Part shown: positions 10,911 through 19,279 of the stretch, in pieces
Position numbering within the stretch: the first letter of the stretch is position 1
Layout of the letters: every line of letters starts with the position of its first letter
From: Acidimicrobiaceae bacterium
Lineage (GTDB): Bacteria > Actinomycetota > Acidimicrobiia > Acidimicrobiales > UBA8190
Direction of reading: 5' to 3'
DNA length: 64,000 nt
Assembly: GCA_003151955.1 (NCBI GenBank)
Contig: PLZB01000037.1
Span: 1-64,000, forward strand
Notes under the pieces: model-generated
What the model saw: only the letters and a program-made list of their open reading frames with translations
Databases searched by the model: none
Told to the model about the DNA's origin: nothing
Translations under genes and position numbers: made by a program

Positions 10911-12434
10911 ATGAGATGGTGGTCGAACCATACGCGACGATCGGCAGTGGTCGCCGCCATATTGATGACGGCCACCATCGGAGTCTTCGGCTTGCCAGGT
11001 CCCGCCTCTGCCGGCGGAACCCCCCTTCATCGGCTTCCGCACGTCGGCTACGCCTTCCCGCAGGGATACCTGATGGTCGGCCAGGACGGCGGGATCTTCA
11101 GCTATGGCGCTGTCGGATCCGAAGGATCGTCGGCCGGGAGCGACGGGACCGTGGTCGCCACCGCCTCAACCAGCGACGGGCAGGGATACTGGGTCGTCAA
11201 CACCGCCGCCCAGATCTACGCCTTCGGAGACGCCGCCTACAAGGGCAACCCCAACACCTCCACCGCCGCCGTCGGGATCGTCGGAACGCTCGACAACCAG
11301 GGCTACTGGATCGTCGATAGCACCGGCCACGTCTACACCAAAGGCGACGCCAACTACTACGGCGGCCACCCGACCAGCAGCTACCCATTCGTGGGGATGG
11401 CCACCACCCCCGACGACAAGGGCTACTGGCTCGTCGCCTCCAACGGCGCGATCTTCGCCTACGGCGACGCCCCGTTCGAAGGGCCCACCACAGGCCTGAC
11501 GTTGAACAAGCCGATCGCCGCCATGGCATCGACTGCCTCCGGGCAGGGCTACTGGCTCGTCGGCCAGGACGGCGGAATCTTCAACTTCGGCGACGCCGGA
11601 TACTTCGGATCAACCGGCGCCTACCCGCCGCCCGCCGGCACGGCCATCGTCGGGATCGCCCCCACCGAAGACGCCCAGGGCTACTGGATCGTCGGAGCCG
11701 ACGGCACCCTCCTCGCCTTCGGCGACGCCGCCTTCCTCGGATCGATGCAAGGCCAGCCCGTGAACAAGCCGATGGTGGGGATCGCGTCGATCGCCCCCCC
11801 AGCAGTAGCCGTTGCCGTCACCACCGCCGCCACCACCCTGATCTCCGTCGGATCCGACAACTTCAACTGGAACTTCGGGATGGCCGCCGGGACCAGCCCG
11901 TCCATCACCGCGCTCACCGGCGGCGGCCACGAAATCGCCTTCCAGGCGAACACCGGCAGCCTCTGGACAACCGGCCCGACCGGAACGACCAACTGGAACC
12001 TCCCCATGAAAGCCGGAACCAGCCCCGCCATCACCGCCGTATCCGGCGGGATCGGGTATGAAGTGGCCTACCAGGCCAGTAACGGCAACCTCGGCGTCGC
12101 CGGCGCCGACTCCACCACCGTCTACAACCTCGGGATGATGGCCTCAACCAGCCCCGCCATCACAGCTATCAGCGGCGGGTTCGACGCCGCTTTCGAAGCC
12201 AACACCGGGATCCTCTACACCGCCGGAACCCCAGGCGTCTCCAACCTCGGAGACGCCATGAACACCACCACCAACCCCGCCATCACCGCCGTCACCGGCG
12301 GAGTCGAAATCGCCTTCGAAGCCAACACCGGAAACCTCTGGACCGTCGGCCAAAGCAGCAACACCACCTGGCAACAAACCCAACTCGCCCAACCAATGCT
12401 CGTCGGAACCAATCCCAGCATCGCCGCTCCATAA
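10911..12434 (+). CDS. Secreted GYW-repeat propeller-like protein with a second C-terminal repeat type
   Basis: The start ATG 10911 follows GCGGGAG and gives a typical signal peptide (RRSAVVAAILMTATIGVFGL, then cleavage near PASA-GG). Residues 50-300 hold about six repeats of the type GQGYWLVGQDGGIFNFGDAxFxGS. Residues 305-507 switch to a different unit of about 43 residues, TSPAITAVSGGxEIAFEANTG(N/S)LWTxG, repeated five times and also conserved at DNA level. It is the intact paralogue of the broken gene at 2468 and lies divergent from the membrane-anchored propeller at 9330. The whole is probably an exported beta-propeller array. Similar proteins often carry peptidase or CAP domains, but none is present here. 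Confidence 0.8.
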   Translation: MRWWSNHTRRSAVVAAILMTATIGVFGLPGPASAGGTPLHRLPHVGYAFPQGYLMVGQDGGIFSYGAVGSEGSSAGSDGTVVATASTSDGQGYWVVNTAAQIYAFGDAAYKGNPNTSTAAVGIVGTLDNQGYWIVDSTGHVYTKGDANYYGGHPTSSYPFVGMATTPDDKGYWLVASNGAIFAYGDAPFEGPTTGLTLNKPIAAMASTASGQGYWLVGQDGGIFNFGDAGYFGSTGAYPPPAGTAIVGIAPTEDAQGYWIVGADGTLLAFGDAAFLGSMQGQPVNKPMVGIASIAPPAVAVAVTTAATTLISVGSDNFNWNFGMAAGTSPSITALTGGGHEIAFQANTGSLWTTGPTGTTNWNLPMKAGTSPAITAVSGGIGYEVAYQASNGNLGVAGADSTTVYNLGMMASTSPAITAISGGFDAAFEANTGILYTAGTPGVSNLGDAMNTTTNPAITAVTGGVEIAFEANTGNLWTVGQSSNTTWQQTQLAQPMLVGTNPSIAAP

Positions 12435-12492
12435 CCCCAGACCGACCAACCGACGCAGGGCGGGCCAGAGCCCACCGTCCAGGCGAGCCCGC

Positions 12493-12582
12493 CGGACTAC
12501 TCCGCGACTACTACTCCCGGCCAACCCTGCCGAGCGGTGGCGGCCAGTGAACACAGAGCCGCAGGTCACGGCCACTATCGGC
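12493..12582 (+). repeat. 90-nt direct repeat, copy 2
   Basis: This is the partner of the copy at 2363-2452 (ungapped, 16 mismatches counted by eye). It begins 58 nt after the stop of the GYW-repeat gene and ends 32 nt before the tRNA-Lys fragment, placing it at the inferred right end of the element. Confidence 0.7.
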
Positions 12583-12614
12583 CAACGGAGGCGAACCCCG
12601 ACACGGCCGGGAAC

Positions 12615-12662
12615 GGACTTTTAATCCCAAGGTGCCGGGTTCGAGCCCCGGGCGGCCCACCA
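12615..12662 (+). repeat. tRNA-Lys(TTT) 3' fragment: attR scar
   Basis: The 48 bases contain the anticodon loop CTTTTAA, the 3' anticodon strand TCCCA, a perfect T-arm (CCGGG-TTCGAGC-CCCGG), the acceptor strand GCGGCCC with discriminator A, and an encoded CCA. The bases 5' of it do not complete the anticodon stem, and no D-arm or 5' acceptor strand is present, so this is not a working tRNA. Tyrosine integrases commonly leave such a duplicated tRNA 3' end at the far side of an insertion. The orientation places the element to the left. Confidence 0.8.
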
Positions 12663-12705
12663 CATCTCCCCAGGTCATTCGTCCAGGTGGGACCGCCATT
12701 CGACG

Positions 12706-12954
12706 ATGAGAGCATGGACTCGCAACGCCGGAAGCGGGGACCCGGCCTGGGACCTCGTGACGCTCAGCCTGTGGGACCCTGACCGGCTCCCTATCCTCCT
12801 CGACGCCTACCGGCGCCTGCCCGGCTTCGTGGCCCACGTCCTGGAGGTCAAGCAGGGCTACCGGATCCTCCGCCACCTCTCCATGGCCCGTTGGCACGCT
12901 GAGCAGGGCTCCGACCCCGGGCCCGACCTCGACGCCCTGCGCCATCTGGCGTGA
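12706..12954 (+). pseudogene. C-terminal remnant resembling an aminoglycoside/choline-kinase-like phosphotransferase
   Basis: The 82 residues contain NAGSGDPAWDLVTLSLWDP, which resembles the DxExxGxGDPxxDL segment after the metal-binding motif in APH-type kinases, followed by a helical tail (LLDAYRR). The N-terminal lobe and HxDxxxxN catalytic loop are absent. It lies 44 nt after the attR site, so a chromosomal gene was probably cut by integration or later deletion. The family assignment rests on this one segment. Confidence 0.45.
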
Positions 12955-13081
12955 CAGCCGATTCCGCTTTTCGGGCCCCGTGGGCGTCACAGCCCACCGT
13001 TACGATCCGTCCAGGCCCTGGTGACGATGCTGAAGCGCCAGCGAGGTCCGAGAAGATCCAGACGGGTGAGGGGGGTGTCAG

Positions 13082-13273
13082 GTGGGGTTGCTCTTCGGTG
13101 CTGCGCTTCTTGTCGGCTCCCTCTTCATGATCGTCATGCTGGTCGGGATGCTCATCCTCCATCCGATCGAGACCTTGATCGCCTTCGCCTACGTCGGCTG
13201 CGCCATCGGGACGTTCACCACCCGGAAGCAACGAAGGGCACGACGCCAGGCTCGCCAGGCCGCCCGGCGATGA
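13082..13273 (+). CDS. Small membrane protein, 63 residues
   Basis: The GTG start at 13082 follows GAGGGGGGTGTCAG. Two adjoining hydrophobic segments (LLFGAALLVGSLFMIVMLVG and LIAFAYVGCAIGTF) are followed by a very basic tail (RKQRRARRQARQAARR), which would sit in the cytoplasm. No family is recognised. Confidence 0.6.
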   Translation: MGLLFGAALLVGSLFMIVMLVGMLILHPIETLIAFAYVGCAIGTFTTRKQRRARRQARQAARR

Positions 13274-13330
13274 TCAATCGCATCGAGACGAGGTGACCGG
13301 CTCGTCCTTCGAGGCCCTGACCAGGGCGCC

Positions 13331-13783
13331 GTGATCTCCTACGACGGCGTCTACCGGTACCGACTGTGGAGACGGTGGGCCAGAGGACCGGCCCTGGTCT
13401 TCATGATGCTGAACCCGTCCACCGCCGACGCCGAACAGGACGACCCCACCATCCGCCGCTGCGCCGGGTTCGCCCGGCGGGAGGGCGCCGCCGCCCTCGA
13501 GGTCGTCAACCTCTATGCCCTGCGCTCCAGCGACCCCCGTGAGCTCGTCGGCCATCCTGACCCGGAGGGACCGGACAACCTCGAGACGGTCACCGCCGTC
13601 ATGTCCGAGGCACTCGATGTCGTCGTGGCCTGGGGCGGTTCTGCTCCCCGGGTGACACCGTCGGGGATCCGCTCCCTCCTGGACCACCGAGACCTGTGGT
13701 GCCTCGGGACCACGGCAGGAGGCGATCCCCGCCACCCGCTCTACGTCCGGGCCGACACCCCCCTCCGGAGATGGCCGACCTGA
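13331..13783 (+). CDS. DUF1643-family protein
   Basis: The 150 residues match the DUF1643 pattern: YRYRLWRRW at the start, MMLNPSTADAEQDDPTIRRC, VVNLYALRSSDP, VVAWGG, and a closing GDPRHPLYV. The family is widespread on phages and islands. Its function is not established, although the fold has been suggested to be nuclease- or glycosylase-like. The start is GTG 13331; the frame upstream closes with a TGA at the same place. It converges on the partner gene of the reverse transcriptase. Confidence 0.85.
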   Translation: MISYDGVYRYRLWRRWARGPALVFMMLNPSTADAEQDDPTIRRCAGFARREGAAALEVVNLYALRSSDPRELVGHPDPEGPDNLETVTAVMSEALDVVVAWGGSAPRVTPSGIRSLLDHRDLWCLGTTAGGDPRHPLYVRADTPLRRWPT

Positions 13784-13836
13784 GGGCGGCCTCGAGGCCG
13801 GCCAGGGCCCGGGAGCCGTGGTCGTAGGGACCGGCG

Positions 13837-14856
13837 TCAGCGGGCCCGTCCCGGGAGGGGGCCTCCCGGCCGTCGGGTCGGGACGGGGGCGCCGATCTCG
13901 GCGGCGAGGGCGAGGAACTCCCGGTGGCCCGGGTAGACCTTGAGGCTCTCGGCCAAGCGGGCGTGGGCGACAGCGGTGTCGCCACGGTGGTGGGCGAGGC
14001 GGGCCTGGAGGAACGTGCGCTCGGGGCCGCCGAGAGCGGGGTGAGTGGTGAGGAGGTCGAGGCGGTCCTCGGCATCGCAGTCGAGGAGGCGGTCGAAGAG
14101 CATGCTGTGCCATTCGGCCAGATCGGCGGTTCGCCGGCCGGTGTCGCCGGTCGGGCCGCGGCTGTCGAGGGCGTGGAGGTAGTGGTCGGTGAACTCGACC
14201 CACCGGTCGGGGATTGGGATCAGCCGGGCCGCGACGGCGGCCAGAGAGGTCTCATCCGTGCTGACCCGGCCGGAGCCGGTCCGGGTCCAGCCGTAGCGGG
14301 ACTCCCACCGGATGAGCTGGTGAGCGGCCCGCCGGGCGAAGGCGGTGAAGCCCTCGGCGTCGCGGTGGGCGGTCCACAGGAGGGCGACGGCGTCGGAGAC
14401 GACGAAGCGGGCCGCCTCGAGGGGATCGTCGGAGCGGAAGAGGTCGTAGTTCCGGGTCTCGCAGGCCAGGTCGATGAGCATCTCCACCGCGGCCGCTCCG
14501 GATCCGGGGTCGGCGGTGAGGGCCTGGCGGGCGGCGGCGGCGTGGTGCTGGAAGGTGAACCGCCAGCGGGTCCGTTCCTTGGGGGAGACCCTGCGGTTCC
14601 CGGCCAGGTAGGCGCCGGAGCGGGCCAGAGCTACGAAGTCGGCGACCTCCTTCACGACGGCAGCGGGATCGACCGGTGGGCGGGGGGAACCGGCGTATAC
14701 ATTCTTCCCGGGTTCGAGCTCGGCCTCGATCCGCTCCCGGGTGGCCACAGGTCCCCGCCAGTAGAGGGTCCAGAGGGCCTTCCTCAGGCCGTCCTCGTCG
14801 AAGGTGGGGAGCTTCCCGTAGAACTCGTCACGGTTCATCCGGCTCGCCGACGTCAT
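13837..14856 (-). CDS. Conserved all-helical protein encoded next to the reverse transcriptase
   Basis: 339 residues. It opens MTSASRMNRDEFYGKLPTFD, then LRKALWTLYWRGP and RERIEAEL, with later conserved-looking blocks ARFVVSDAVALLW and QLIRWESRYGWTR. It is predicted helical throughout, ending in a TPR-like pair (FLQARLAHHRGDTAVAHARL). It has no signal peptide or membrane segment. It begins 34 nt after the stop of the reverse transcriptase in the same direction, so co-expression is likely. I recall similar proteins in actinobacteria without known function and cannot say whether it always accompanies an RT. Confidence 0.7.
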   Translation of the reverse strand: MTSASRMNRDEFYGKLPTFDEDGLRKALWTLYWRGPVATRERIEAELEPGKNVYAGSPRPPVDPAAVVKEVADFVALARSGAYLAGNRRVSPKERTRWRFTFQHHAAAARQALTADPGSGAAAVEMLIDLACETRNYDLFRSDDPLEAARFVVSDAVALLWTAHRDAEGFTAFARRAAHQLIRWESRYGWTRTGSGRVSTDETSLAAVAARLIPIPDRWVEFTDHYLHALDSRGPTGDTGRRTADLAEWHSMLFDRLLDCDAEDRLDLLTTHPALGGPERTFLQARLAHHRGDTAVAHARLAESLKVYPGHREFLALAAEIGAPVPTRRPGGPLPGRAR

Positions 14857-14890
14857 CCGGAGAGCATGGCCGACCGGGGAACTGCGGCCG

Positions 14891-16942
14891 TCACGCTGCC
14901 GCCAGCAGCGCCGCCGTGGTCCGGGTCTCCCGCTTGAGCAGCTTCTCGAACAGGACCGGGTCCGAATGCCGGGCGAGGTAGAGGACGTCGTCCCCCAGGG
15001 CAGGGGGAGCGCCGTCGATGAGAAGTCCGACGTCGGGAAGTCCCGGCCGCTGGCGCTCGGCCAGGAAGGTGGCGGCCCGGAGGCGGAGGGTCCAGGTGCG
15101 GGTCTCCGCCGGCGCGTGGGCCCGGGCGAGACCGTCGAACGCCCCGTCTTCGCCCTGCCGGCCGAGGGCGGCGTACAGCCGGAGCCATTGGGCGTCGTAG
15201 GTCACGACGCCAGCGTCCTCGATGCCGTTGAGGAGGCGGGCGACGGCCTCGGGGTTCCTCGGTGCGACAGCCTGGATGTAGGTGGAGAGGCTGTCGGCGT
15301 ATTCGGGCCGGCCAACCAACCAGGGCGGGAGATGGGTGGTCCCGTCGGCACCTGACGATGCGAGGAGGCTCATGCCGGCCCGCATGAGGAACAGGTTGCG
15401 GCGCTCGTCACTCGGGGTTGTCTGGAGTCGGTGTTGATGGTCCTGTTCGGCGGCGACGGCGTCGAGGACGAGGAGGAGGGCCTGTTCGTCCCCGGGCCGG
15501 AGATGGGCACCGACGCCTCCGAGGACCTCGTCCACGCTGAGGTTGGCGTGGTACCAGCCCCACTTCATCGCCTCGTCGGCGCCGAGCGCGTCGAGGAGGG
15601 CGTAGATGCGGGAGTCCTGCTCGGTCACGTCGTGGGCGGCCAGGTAGTGGCGTACCGCCGTGGAAACCTCGTTCCGGTGTTCGAGATAAGTCTCGGTGCG
15701 CATGGTGCGGGTCTTGTCGTCGTTGATGGGCAACTCGAGCTTGCGGAGCTCGGATCGGACCATCCGCTCGACCTCTCGCGCCTCGTCGAGATCCTTGGTG
15801 GCGCACCGGAGATCGTCACCGTGACGGACGAACCGGACCCCGGCCGACCGGAGGACCCGGTCGAGCGGAGCGAGGACGACCGAGGCGAGGGGATCGGAGG
15901 GTGTCAGACCCTGGGGGAGGCCCTCTGGGCGCCCGCACACCTCCCCCAGCCAGGACACGAGGGAATCTGTGACGGCCGGGTCGCATCGGGCGGTGAGGAG
16001 GGCGTCCCGGAGGACGTCGTGACGGATCGAGTCGTAGAACGACTGGACGTCGACGGCGAAGACGTAGGGCTCGCCGGCGTGGGCGACGAAGCTCTCGAGG
16101 TCGGTCCACCGCTTCTCCGTGTCGTGGCCACGGGGCCAGAGAACGTCGTCGGCGTCGCCGAGAGTGTGCTCGATGGCGGCCCGGCATCGGGCCACCAGGG
16201 CGGCGTAGACGAGCCGGTCGGCGTAGCGGAGGGCGCCGGCGGGTCGGACGCCGCCACCGGCCTTCGGGATCTCGACGACGTGCACCGGCGTGGGGGCATA
16301 CCTGCCCTGGTCGAGGTCGTCCCGCATGGCCTCGATGACCACCGCGAACAGCTCTCCTGAGACCCGGTCGCCGGCCCGGTCGGGGAGCAGATCGCTGACG
16401 AGCTCCGACGGGCGGACCGCGGTCAGGGCGTCGGAGATGATCCCGGGCAACGAGCTCAGAGCCCGGTGGGATGCCCGAGGGGCGCGGTACAGGCGGCGGC
16501 GCTTGTCGTCGGGATCGACGTCGACCTCGAGCCGGCCGTCCTGCCTGAGCTTCCGGGCCGCCCGACTGACCTGGGTGATGTCGACCTCGAGGAGGGTGGC
16601 GAGCTCCGACGGCGACATCGGCCGGTCTGCCACAGCGTCCAACAACCGCTTCGACAGCGACCATTCGAACTCCCGGTCCTCACGGGCGGCTTCGCGGGCA
16701 ACCCGTCGGGTGAGCTCGACCGAGACACGGGCGGCGAGATCGCCGAGCAGGCCGGAGTCGGCATCGACCGCCTTCAGCCGGTGACGGGCCCGTTCCAGTT
16801 GGGCTCCGACCGCGGCGGCTCCCTCCACCGAGTCGTCGGCCAGGAGCTGGTCGACGAGGCCTGCAATGGCGTCGACATCGTCGGCGGTCTCCAGGAAGGC
16901 CCTGAGCTCGGTCAACGATCTCGACTGCCGGGAACCCGCCAT
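14891..16942 (-). CDS. Reverse transcriptase with N-terminal winged helix and C-terminal helical domain (candidate defence RT)
   Basis: 683 residues. Residues 1-90 are helical. Residues 94-155 form a MarR-like winged helix (MSPSELATLLEVDITQVSRA, then RLEVDVDPDDKRRRLY). The RT domain spans about 215-425: HVVEIPKAGGGVRP, RYADRLVYAAL, motif A FAVDVQSFYDSI (Asp298), motif B GLPQGLTPSDPLAS (Gln344), motif C FVRHGDDLRC (Asp376-Asp377) and motif D ELPINDDKT. The catalytic triad is intact, although motif C has HGDD in place of the usual YxDD. Residues 430-683 are helical with no known domain. It has no group II maturase, retron msr/msd or DGR template features. Similar lone RTs are antiphage (DRT/UG groups). 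The class is not assigned here, and the DNA-binding fusion is unusual. Confidence 0.85.
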   Translation of the reverse strand: MAGSRQSRSLTELRAFLETADDVDAIAGLVDQLLADDSVEGAAAVGAQLERARHRLKAVDADSGLLGDLAARVSVELTRRVAREAAREDREFEWSLSKRLLDAVADRPMSPSELATLLEVDITQVSRAARKLRQDGRLEVDVDPDDKRRRLYRAPRASHRALSSLPGIISDALTAVRPSELVSDLLPDRAGDRVSGELFAVVIEAMRDDLDQGRYAPTPVHVVEIPKAGGGVRPAGALRYADRLVYAALVARCRAAIEHTLGDADDVLWPRGHDTEKRWTDLESFVAHAGEPYVFAVDVQSFYDSIRHDVLRDALLTARCDPAVTDSLVSWLGEVCGRPEGLPQGLTPSDPLASVVLAPLDRVLRSAGVRFVRHGDDLRCATKDLDEAREVERMVRSELRKLELPINDDKTRTMRTETYLEHRNEVSTAVRHYLAAHDVTEQDSRIYALLDALGADEAMKWGWYHANLSVDEVLGGVGAHLRPGDEQALLLVLDAVAAEQDHQHRLQTTPSDERRNLFLMRAGMSLLASSGADGTTHLPPWLVGRPEYADSLSTYIQAVAPRNPEAVARLLNGIEDAGVVTYDAQWLRLYAALGRQGEDGAFDGLARAHAPAETRTWTLRLRAATFLAERQRPGLPDVGLLIDGAPPALGDDVLYLARHSDPVLFEKLLKRETRTTAALLAAA

Positions 16943-16943
16943 G

Positions 16944-16966
16944 ATGTCAAGTATATGTCAAATGTC
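16944..16966 (-). promoter_or_regulatory. Probable leaderless promoter with direct repeats for the reverse transcriptase
   Basis: On the minus strand TATACT (16955-16950) ends seven bases before the ATG, the spacing expected when transcription starts at the start codon. No ribosome binding site is seen. ATGTC occurs three times within 16944-16966, two copies as ATGTCAA eleven bases apart. This could be an operator, possibly for the protein's own winged helix. Confidence 0.4.
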
Positions 16967-17079
16967 CGAATTCGGTGCTCCGGCCGACGGTAGGCGCCCC
17001 ACCCCTCGCCGAGGGTGCCGAACGTGGCCCCCGGCGCAGGGCCGCCGGCGGCGACAACGGCCCGGTCGACGTCCTTCAC

Positions 17080-17318
17080 CGGCTGGCCGAGGAGGGCCTG
17101 GTCCGTCGGCCGGCCGTCCCAGAGATGGGGATTGTTGGCGACGACCATCCCCCCCTGGGAACGGCGGATGACGGCATGGGCCGCCCCGGCGAAGTCACCC
17201 AGTCCGGCGCAGCGGCATATCCCCTCCGTTCGAGGGAGACCAGCATGGCGCTGACGTCGGCCGGGGTGAGCATGGTGAGCCGGATCCGGCCGACGGTTGG
17301 GAGCACATATAGCCCCAC
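17080..17318 (-). pseudogene. Tyrosine integrase remnant (core-binding domain)
   Basis: One frame reads VLPTVGRIRLTMLTPADV then SAMLVSLERRGYAA, the SAM-like core-binding domain of actinobacterial tyrosine integrases. The adjacent frame continues with AHAVIRRSQGGMVVANN, like the next helix of the same domain, so there is also a frameshift. Neither the catalytic R-H-R-Y domain nor the N-terminal arm-binding domain is visible. It is fused directly to the ArsR remnant, which marks an old deletion or integration junction. Confidence 0.55.
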
Positions 17319-17493
17319 TCAGCGCCCGATTCCAAAAGGTGTCGAGCTGGTCGCGAAGGGCGTCCACCCCGACCTCGTTGAGGCGGTAGATCCGACGCGT
17401 GCCAACCGCTTGCTCGGCGACCACCCCGGCGTCCTTCAGTACCTTCAAATGCTGCGACACGGCGGGGCGGCTCACCGGCAAGTCGGCGGCGAG
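17316..17493 (-). pseudogene. ArsR-family regulator remnant
   Basis: About 58 codons read LAADLPVSRPAVSQHLKVLK and then DAGVVAEQAVGTRRIYRL, the recognition helix and wing of an ArsR/SmtB repressor. A TGA precedes LAAD in frame, so the N-terminus is lost. The protein breaks off after WNRAL where the integrase remnant begins. It is non-functional. Confidence 0.65.
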
Positions 17494-17540
17494 TCAAGCC
17501 CCCACGCTACGGAGTTCGTGAAGTCAGAACCGAGGGTCCC

Positions 17541-18266
17541 TCAGCGGGGGGTCGGTGGCACCTTCGCCGGTGAGGTCGACCCGACGAGTGAGGTGGCGAC
17601 GACGATATTCGAGAGGTAGTGGCCGGATCGCTGGTCGAACTGTCCCCCACAGGTCACCAGCTCGAGCGCGCTGGAGCCGTTCGATCCGTAGACCTGATCG
17701 GCCGGGAACTGGGACTTCAGGTAGGTGGCCACGCCGTCGACTGCGAAGTGGACCACAACGCCGTCGGCCAGGAGCACGTCGACCCGGTCACCGGGCCGCA
17801 GGGTTCCGAGCTTGAAGAACACGGCAGGGCCCTGGTAGGAGTCGACGTGGCCCAGGATGACCGAGGAGCCGATCTGGCCCGGAGTCGGACCTAGCCGGAA
17901 CCATCCCGGCTCCTGGTAGTCCGTCGGCACCTCCACCGTTCCGTCGGAGTTGAGCCCGAGGCTGGAAAGGGGAACGGCCACGCCGAGGGCCGGAATGCCA
18001 AGGGCCACGGGCACGGAGCGGAGGACCGCAGGAGCGGTCATTGTCGCCGGCGTCGTTGGTGCTGATGCAGGCAGTGTCGGTGCCGTGCTGGCGCTGGCGG
18101 GAGCTCGCAGCGGCACCGCCGGCCCGGGCGGCCGAGGTAGTGCTGCCTGGTCGCTACCCAGACCCACCACGAGGCAGCCGGTGCCGGTCACCAACAGTGC
18201 CGCGGCCAGGGTCAACCAGTGGATCGATCGCAGCCGCCGGAGTCCGGCGGGAGCCGATCCGGTCAT
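17541..18266 (-). CDS. Class E/F-type sortase
   Basis: 241 residues with one N-terminal membrane anchor (IHWLTLAAALLVTGTGCLVV), a Pro/Ala/Thr linker, and a sortase barrel from about residue 85. The catalytic His140 is in LGHVDSYQGPAVFFKL and Cys206 in LVTCGG, with the conserved Arg near 213 (FDQRSGHY). Sortases cut a sorting motif and transfer the protein to the cell wall. The start overlaps the stop of the DUF3494 gene by ATGA. That gene ends in a sortable C-terminus, so it is the likely substrate of this enzyme. Confidence 0.85.
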   Translation of the reverse strand: MTGSAPAGLRRLRSIHWLTLAAALLVTGTGCLVVGLGSDQAALPRPPGPAVPLRAPASASTAPTLPASAPTTPATMTAPAVLRSVPVALGIPALGVAVPLSSLGLNSDGTVEVPTDYQEPGWFRLGPTPGQIGSSVILGHVDSYQGPAVFFKLGTLRPGDRVDVLLADGVVVHFAVDGVATYLKSQFPADQVYGSNGSSALELVTCGGQFDQRSGHYLSNIVVATSLVGSTSPAKVPPTPR

Positions 18267-19279
18267 GCATCCCTACCACCCGGCAGGTGGACCACCTGGC
18301 GGCGGCGGACGGTCAGTGCCACGGCGGTGGCAGCCGCTGCGCCGAGCAGGGCAAGCCCGCCCAGGGTCACGAGCAGTTCGCCGTGACCGGCAGGCGCGGT
18401 GCCGCCCGCACCGGTTGCCGGCGCACCCCTGGGGATGACCCCCGTGACCGCCGTGGTCGGCGTGGCCCCCGACTGCGCCGTTCCCGCGGCGACCGTCGTG
18501 GTGGACGAGGTCGACGAGGTCGCGGCCGCCCTCGTGCAGGTGGGGACGGTGATCGTGTTGTTGTCCAGGCTGACCTGGCCGTTTCGGGCCAGGACCCGCC
18601 CGGAGACGGTGGTCCCGGTCTGGACCGTGGCTGAGGTCAGGGCCAGGATGCTCCCACTGAAGGAGCTGCCGGTGCCCAGGGTGGCCGAGCTTCCGACCTG
18701 CCAGAACACGTTGCAGGCCTGGGCTCCCCCGGTCAGCTGAACGGTGCTGTTGGACGCGGTGATGAGCGTCGAGCCCGCCTGGAAGATGAACACCGAGTTC
18801 GCGTCGCTCTTGGCGTCCAGGGTGACCGTGCCGGTGAGACCCAACCCGGAGGTGGCCTTGTACACCCCCGCGACCAGCGTCTGGCCGCCGAGGTCGGCGG
18901 ACACGGTGGTGACCGGGGTCCGGCCCGCGGCGTCGAGGTAGCCCGTGGTCAGGTCGGACTGGGCCTGCACTGCGACAGCATCAGCGGCGTGAATGGTCCC
19001 GTTGCCGACGGTCCCGGGTGGGAAGCCGGTGACGGCCGAACCGGGGCTGAGCCCGAGGTCCCCGGAGACGACCGAGGGTCCCGTGTTGGTGACGGTGGTC
19101 CCCGCCAGCACGGCGAACGAAGTGGCCGACCCCAACCCCACTGTTGCCTGGGATGCCGACGCCGCAGGCGTTCCGACCAGGCTGGCGAGTGCCACCAGGC
19201 CGGAGACGGTTCCTCCGGCCAGTGCGACCGAGATCCAACGGTGCGACCGATGATCGTGCTTGCCCCCCGCGCCGGTCAT
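18263..19279 (-). CDS. DUF3494 (ice-binding-like) secreted protein with C-terminal sorting signal
   Basis: 338 residues from ATG 19279. It has a signal peptide (WISVALAGGTVSGLVALASL, cleavage near ASA). Residues about 55-240 form the DUF3494 fold: SFAVLAGTTVTNTGPSVVSG, GLSPG, GGQTLVAGVYK, FIFQAGSTLIT and CNVFWQVGSSATLGTG. A Thr/Ser linker follows, then APATG, a hydrophobic stretch (LLVTLGGLALLGAAAATAVAL) and RRRQ, which is a wall-sorting signal. DUF3494 proteins include ice-binding proteins and adhesins; many in warm habitats are probably adhesive. It overlaps both the micropeptide before it and the sortase after it. Confidence 0.85.
   Translation of the reverse strand: MTGAGGKHDHRSHRWISVALAGGTVSGLVALASLVGTPAASASQATVGLGSATSFAVLAGTTVTNTGPSVVSGDLGLSPGSAVTGFPPGTVGNGTIHAADAVAVQAQSDLTTGYLDAAGRTPVTTVSADLGGQTLVAGVYKATSGLGLTGTVTLDAKSDANSVFIFQAGSTLITASNSTVQLTGGAQACNVFWQVGSSATLGTGSSFSGSILALTSATVQTGTTVSGRVLARNGQVSLDNNTITVPTCTRAAATSSTSSTTTVAAGTAQSGATPTTAVTGVIPRGAPATGAGGTAPAGHGELLVTLGGLALLGAAAATAVALTVRRRQVVHLPGGRDA

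Follow-up and report, generated by a model that had tools for sequence, protein, structure and literature searches.

The 64,000-nucleotide stretch of contig PLZB01000037.1 analyzed here (the window), which belongs to an Acidimicrobiaceae genome, encodes on its reverse strand a 683-amino-acid (aa) reverse transcriptase (RT) with a built-in predicted winged-helix domain. On the same strand the RT gene is followed after 34 nucleotides (nt) by an open reading frame (ORF) for a 339-aa protein, and it is preceded by a short direct repeat and by the remnant of a nitrilase-superfamily gene (Table 1). An earlier sequence-only reading of this DNA had presented the RT and the 339-aa protein as a candidate new defense system, and had overlooked the direct repeat and the nitrilase remnant. 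The RT part of that proposal was confirmed as a UG/Abi-type enzyme with a built-in winged helix, although its core is not an orphan and is UG22-like; the 339-aa partner was not supported. The conserved partner of the winged-helix RT is, on comparison of related loci, the nitrilase-superfamily gene located upstream.

Table 1. Features of the winged-helix RT locus and of a related module in the same genome (positions refer to the window unless stated otherwise).
Feature	Position	Strand	Basis
683-aa protein: N-terminal helices, winged helix, RT, helical C-domain	14891..16942	(-)	intact ORF; RVT_1; RT_UG22; AlphaFold2; full-length relatives
Residues 1-103, helical N-terminal region including one long helix (62-103)	16634..16942	(-)	AlphaFold2; related to stand-alone C38 protein
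Residues 104-154, winged-helix DNA-binding domain (predicted)	16481..16633	(-)	MarR_2 8.4e-6; AlphaFold2 helices 111-118 and 122-134, strands 139-142 and 150-153
Residues 178-425, RT fingers/palm, catalytic D298, D376, D377 (motif C HGDD)	15668..16411	(-)	profiles, alignment, fold
Residues 426-683, UG/Abi-type helical C-terminal domain	14894..15667	(-)	AlphaFold2; DRT6/DRT4/AbiK alignment reaches residue 683
17-bp direct repeat TTGACATATACTTGACA (TTGAC-N6-TTGAC), candidate operator of winged helix	16945..16961	(-)	two bases before RT start codon; kept in L016 and L022
Nitrilase-superfamily remnant, final 69 codons without the catalytic E/K/C region	16999..17205	(-)	54% identity over 69 aa to L016 nitrilase C-terminus, E 6e-17
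Lineage-specific helical protein of 339 aa whose C-terminal part is weakly TPR-like	13837..14856	(-)	coding statistics; AlphaFold2 pLDDT 59
Nitrilase paralogue, then stand-alone helical/winged-helix gene, with TTGAC-N6-TTGAC, no RT	L039:5757-7958 = window genome contig C38:17756-19957	(-)	sequence comparison
Tyrosine-integrase fragment (core-binding domain), abuts nitrilase remnant	17208..17318	(-)	41% identity over 39 aa to integrase in L075
ArsR-family regulator fragment	17326..17484	(-)	Pfam HTH_5 24.4 bits; 34% over 53 aa to regulator in L030
3' half of tRNA-Lys(TTT)-like gene, CCA end, likely attachment-site scar	12614..12662	(+)	read by eye; no ARAGORN or Rfam call

The 683-aa protein showed a significant match to RVT_1 (1.9e-18, Pfam), whereas its MarR_2 match (26.3 bits) is slightly below the curated cut-off of 27 bits. 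In an AlphaFold2 model built from seven relatives (mean predicted local distance difference test score, pLDDT, 76), the winged helix was modelled as helix-helix-strand-strand over residues 111-153, followed by the RT fingers and palm and by a C-terminal part of about 250 residues that is entirely helical. The three catalytic aspartates did not vary in an alignment of 34 RTs. The MarR-like domain, the complete RT active site and the long helical C-terminal part described in the sequence-only reading were therefore all borne out. The protein combines the modelled fold with a putative cognate repeat operator, as expected of a MarR-like winged-helix regulator, the operator role being predicted. 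No nitrilase domain was matched in the protein in the Pfam scan.

The best PADLOC profile for the RT was RT_UG22 (3.7e-70, 235 bits), followed by UG21 (130 bits), and the three winged-helix RTs found, from the window and from two related loci, scored 235, 225, and 222 bits with RT_UG22 against at most 130 bits with the next model. Maximum-likelihood analysis of the RT cores groups these three in one clade (support 99/98), nested within a larger clade of UG22-like RTs (94/92). UG22 RTs with a HEPN partner form a separate clade (100/99), and the winged-helix RTs stand beside them, not among them; the other RTs were separated at 99/99, and most of those checked were best matched by group II/CRISPR-type models. 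Moreover, residues 174-683 of the modelled fold aligned to DRT6 (Z 19.9, 429 residues), DRT4 (19.1), and AbiK (17.3), with UG15 and Abi-P2 likewise matching from residue 174 to the C-terminus, while group II intron RTs superposed well over the RT part alone. DRT1 did not appear in these structure-search lists, which is uninformative because its entry 9YFD is possibly newer than the library. The UG/Abi arrangement, with a helical domain on the C-terminal side of the RT domain, was found both in the model and by structure alignment. Profile scores, tree and fold therefore agree in assigning the RT core with its C-domain to the UG22-like branch of the UG/Abi group. We write UG22-like rather than UG22 because the RTasHEPN neighbor, present in the loci L006, L007, and L017, had no match in the window or in L022, while L016 offers only approximately 560 nt downstream of its RT.

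A group II intron RT was rejected, since Pfam showed no maturase match, TIGR04416 reached 95.8 bits against a cut-off of 300, no Rfam family matched between positions 12000 and 18500, and the tree placed the RT elsewhere. Readings as a diversity-generating retroelement (DGR) or a retron were set aside as improbable on profiles, tree and lack of a matching RNA, in agreement with the earlier statement that maturase, retron RNA and DGR parts are not seen. Searches of PADLOC, Pfam and NCBIfam and of the open literature turned up no system already described with the same combination of domains; the earlier reading had remarked that no characterized antiphage RT is known to carry an N-terminal winged helix.

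Two other RT loci deserve mention in their own right. On a Rhodococcus plasmid (L007:5410-9129) the UG22 RT and HEPN genes are preceded by genes for a GntR-kinase fusion and for a small kinase, and L006 has a similar GntR-kinase pair at a greater distance upstream. A CRISPR adaptation cluster between repeats (L078:1-6302) comprises a Cas6-like gene, an RT-Cas4 fusion (570 aa; RT 16-288, Cas4 370-558), two Cas1-like and two Cas2-like genes.

Full-length relatives of the winged-helix RT were recovered at just two loci, L016 (contig JAPOQZ010000241, 51%) and L022 (Acidimicrobiaceae UBA9382, 49%). Among 396 genomes of the phylum the window's own was the only winged-helix RT, and among 395 genomes of the class L016 was the sole one recovered. 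Scans of phages and plasmids with the RT returned distant RTs alone, and scans of viral contigs with the RT, the nitrilase and the 339-aa protein as queries returned nothing. A predicted nitrilase-superfamily gene precedes the RT in all three loci: it is intact in L016, interrupted by an IS3-family insertion sequence (IS) in UBA9382, and reduced to a stub in the window. The ORF in L016 encodes 469 aa and stops 57 nt ahead of the RT. In UBA9382 the RT contig starts exactly at the IS3-family terminal repeat; past the element, the nitrilase C-terminus (AAGGPAPGLTVGQLGTGWSIYEPVQP, followed by the stop) is encoded 23 nt ahead of the RT, and the remaining part of the nitrilase is found on a different contig of that genome, where it ends at the same IS repeat. 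The Pfam scan was silent on the L016 nitrilase itself, while CN_hydrolase was matched above cut-off in homologues from Rhodococcus plasmids (L023, 6e-6) and below threshold in L039 (3e-4). The catalytic residues E244, K300, and C337 are unchanged among L016, L030, and L039; the window remnant lacks this triad.

Several neighborhoods of nitrilase homologues were also noted. Related nitrilase-NUDIX fusions occur on Rhodococcus, Streptomyces, and Mycolicibacterium plasmids (L023-L027) with no RT nearby and, in most, an adjoining AarF/UbiB-type kinase gene. Immediately upstream of the UBA9382 nitrilase lies the gene for a 1485-aa NACHT/AAA-like ATPase (L030:6449-10906), possibly part of a defense island. 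A divergent homologue stands first in a row of small genes, including one for a peptidase-like (ImmA/IrrE-type) protein, which may be a defense-like operon (L074:4797-9299).

The direct repeat overlaps a TATACT box, resembling a -10 element, 7 nt before the ATG of the RT; a box at this distance is also compatible with a leaderless actinobacterial promoter. L016 and L022 carry the repeat as TTGACWTAYACTTGACA, likewise two bases from the RT start, while its chance expectation is 0.04 per window. The pattern TTGACNNNNNCTTGAC matched only twice in the 4.57-Mb window genome, at the RT start and on contig C38 before a stand-alone winged-helix gene. The UBA9382 genome gave one match, at the RT, and the L016 genome (G727) gave two, at the RT and inside priA, the latter taken as chance. 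The stand-alone C38 protein is related to the N-terminus of the RT (pairwise E 9e-6) and was the sole match among 2503 ORFs to a profile of the three RT N-termini (E 2.3e-5); its gene is preceded by a nitrilase paralogue (33% identity). At the sequence level, the order nitrilase, repeat, winged helix thus occurs both with and without an RT. Given that the repeat is present at three RT starts and also ahead of the stand-alone winged-helix relative beside a nitrilase paralogue, we infer that it may be the operator of the winged helix and that the RT may regulate its own expression.

Further upstream in the window, three gene fragments (nitrilase C-terminus, integrase, ArsR regulator) abut within 500 bp (16999-17484). 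This zone may be one of decay or an assembly join, and an artefact of the draft genome may lie at 17205-17500. The integrase remnant reported on one side of the RT is real but tiny, and the attR scar reported on the other side fits, by eye, the 3' half of a tRNA-Lys gene. The window copy of the module is probably incomplete, because the putative effector has been reduced to a stub without catalytic residues; either the nitrilase has been lost recently, or its role is filled in trans by the C38 paralogue or by the 339-aa protein.

We propose, with a confidence that leans neither way, that the locus type is a two-gene DRT-like abortive-infection module consisting of a nitrilase effector, an operator and a self-regulated winged-helix RT of the untemplated type, and that the local copy has decayed. 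The winged helix would bind the TTGAC-N6-TTGAC repeat and limit transcription of its own RT, which might make protein-primed, untemplated DNA like the UG/Abi RTs of Classes 1 and 3. Phage infection would alter this synthesis or the DNA adduct and so switch on the nitrilase, which might then destroy an essential metabolite of the amide or nitrile type or make a toxin, so that the infected cell halts the spread of the phage. The window copy would probably be unable to complete this last step unless the C38 paralogue or the 339-aa neighbor substitutes. Untemplated synthesis and control of a separate nitrilase are proposed because of the analogy to DRT1 and to AbiK and Abi-P2. DRT1, a fused RT-nitrilase that kills infected cells, makes protein-primed template-free DNA by which the nitrilase is driven to assemble and is kept in check (PMC13275509), and AbiK and Abi-P2, which consist of an RT and a helical domain, carry out protein-primed untemplated synthesis (PMC9508834). 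A bolder version, tentative and rather doubtful, is an undescribed DRT type in which an untemplated polymerase carries a sequence-specific repressor as a fused part. Its DNA product or oligomeric state would directly gate both transcription of the operon and the activity of a separate nitrilase that acts as death effector; the RT would then be sensor and transcription factor at once.

Several observations weigh against a nitrilase-based defense module. Just three winged-helix RT loci were found, all in metagenome-assembled genomes and only one of them fully intact, and the effector is truncated in the window itself. The upstream nitrilase is only remotely related to the RT-associated nitrilase of PADLOC (E 0.05), and the same nitrilase family is also found without any RT, so that a metabolic role is possible. 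In DRT1 the nitrilase is fused and C-terminal, whereas here the genes are separate and in the opposite order. Moreover, no phage-defense experiment on UG22-like RTs was found in the literature searched.

A function outside defense was also considered, in which nitrilase and winged helix would form a metabolic regulatory module and the RT, fused to it and domesticated, would either tune its transcription or be on the way to loss. In favor are the RT-less pair with the same operator on C38 and the NUDIX-fused homologues on Rhodococcus plasmids without an adjoining RT. We nevertheless consider this reading unlikely, since studied members of the RT's group act against phages, the loci are rare, patchy and associated with integrases or IS elements, and a NACHT-like ATPase lies upstream in UBA9382.

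The 339-aa protein was also considered as effector or accessory of the winged-helix RT, perhaps recruited in this lineage after loss of the nitrilase. Its gene lies, as described earlier, shortly downstream on the same strand and is genuine by its coding statistics (GC content at third codon positions 0.91; codon score 0.48, the antisense ORF scoring 0.00), and the RT has kept its frame and catalytic residues despite the nitrilase loss. The single-sequence AlphaFold2 model is all-helical, which would suit an accessory role, and its Foldseek matches were helical or TPR repeats, none of them significant. However, no relative was found beside L022, in the approximately 560 nt available downstream in L016, or in 247 class genomes, plasmids, phages or viral contigs. 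In 17 genomes of the family the only match was one of 27 aa at chance level (G762), in no partner-like ORF and away from any RT. A HEPN identity was rejected, as the RT-associated HEPN profile of PADLOC did not match; an Rx4H string is present and was not used as evidence. The gene pair did not recur in the collections searched, an outcome that the earlier reading had itself named as refuting its proposal. The 339-aa gene is best seen as a lineage-specific neighbor for which a recruited function is possible, and its role as the working partner of the RT strikes us as quite improbable.

We regard as very unlikely a toxin-antitoxin system in which the nitrilase is the toxin, the winged-helix RT with its DNA product is antitoxin and autorepressor, and phage interference with the RT frees the nitrilase. 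Retrons offer a precedent, as does the reading of the DRT1 product as 'non-genomic antitoxin DNA' (PMC13275509); the putative autoregulation through winged helix and operator resembles antitoxin circuits, and the window has lost the toxin and kept the regulator, as would be expected of a costly toxin. In DRT1, however, the RT is required for nitrilase activation, and the RT-dead form is non-toxic (PMC13275509). A retron or Class 2 DRT-like system with a nearby templating non-coding RNA, on the model of DRT2, DRT9, and DRT10 (UG RTs that use such an RNA adjoining the RT gene), is barely credible, because the RT of L022 has just 23 nt of free sequence ahead of it and 79 nt behind it before the next ORF, and the Rfam scan of window positions 12000-18500 was empty, although a novel short RNA is possible.

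The preferred reading, a DRT-like module of nitrilase and self-regulated RT, was compared with known systems; no winged-helix RT of UG22-like type with a separate nitrilase was described in the literature and libraries searched, the Mestre UG/Abi neighborhood tables being outside their scope. The best profile match is to UG22 systems with RTasHEPN, for example those of the Rhodococcus plasmids NZ_CP023721 and NZ_CP092100 and that of L017, which share the RT and helical C-domain and occupy the neighboring clade. They differ by having no winged helix and no upstream nitrilase, by a HEPN gene downstream, and by an identity of only about 22-24%. In AbiK, Abi-P2, DRT4 (UG15), and DRT6 (UG12), described as RT plus helical domain, these two parts superpose end to end on the window model at 9-14% identity, and the winged helix and nitrilase are additions of the window type. 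The C38 pair has the related nitrilase, the related helical/winged-helix protein and identical operator spacing, with no RT attached. DRT1 (UG1, Class 3 UG/Abi) likewise unites an RT, an alpha-helical domain and a nitrilase, and control of the nitrilase by the RT is the logic proposed here by analogy (PMC13275509). In contrast to DRT1, the window-type RT is UG22-like and carries a winged helix, its nitrilase is distantly related, and the two do not form one polypeptide.

DRT1 is an RT that controls a nitrilase within a single polypeptide, and the window type may present this logic split into parts that can be handled separately, with a predicted DNA-binding domain inside the polymerase and a conserved 17-bp candidate target. 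It therefore bears on the coupling between DNA synthesis and a nitrilase effector and on whether a DRT can regulate its own expression. Moreover, the link of UG22-like RTs, which have HEPN-using relatives, to a different effector suggests that effectors are swappable on one RT scaffold.

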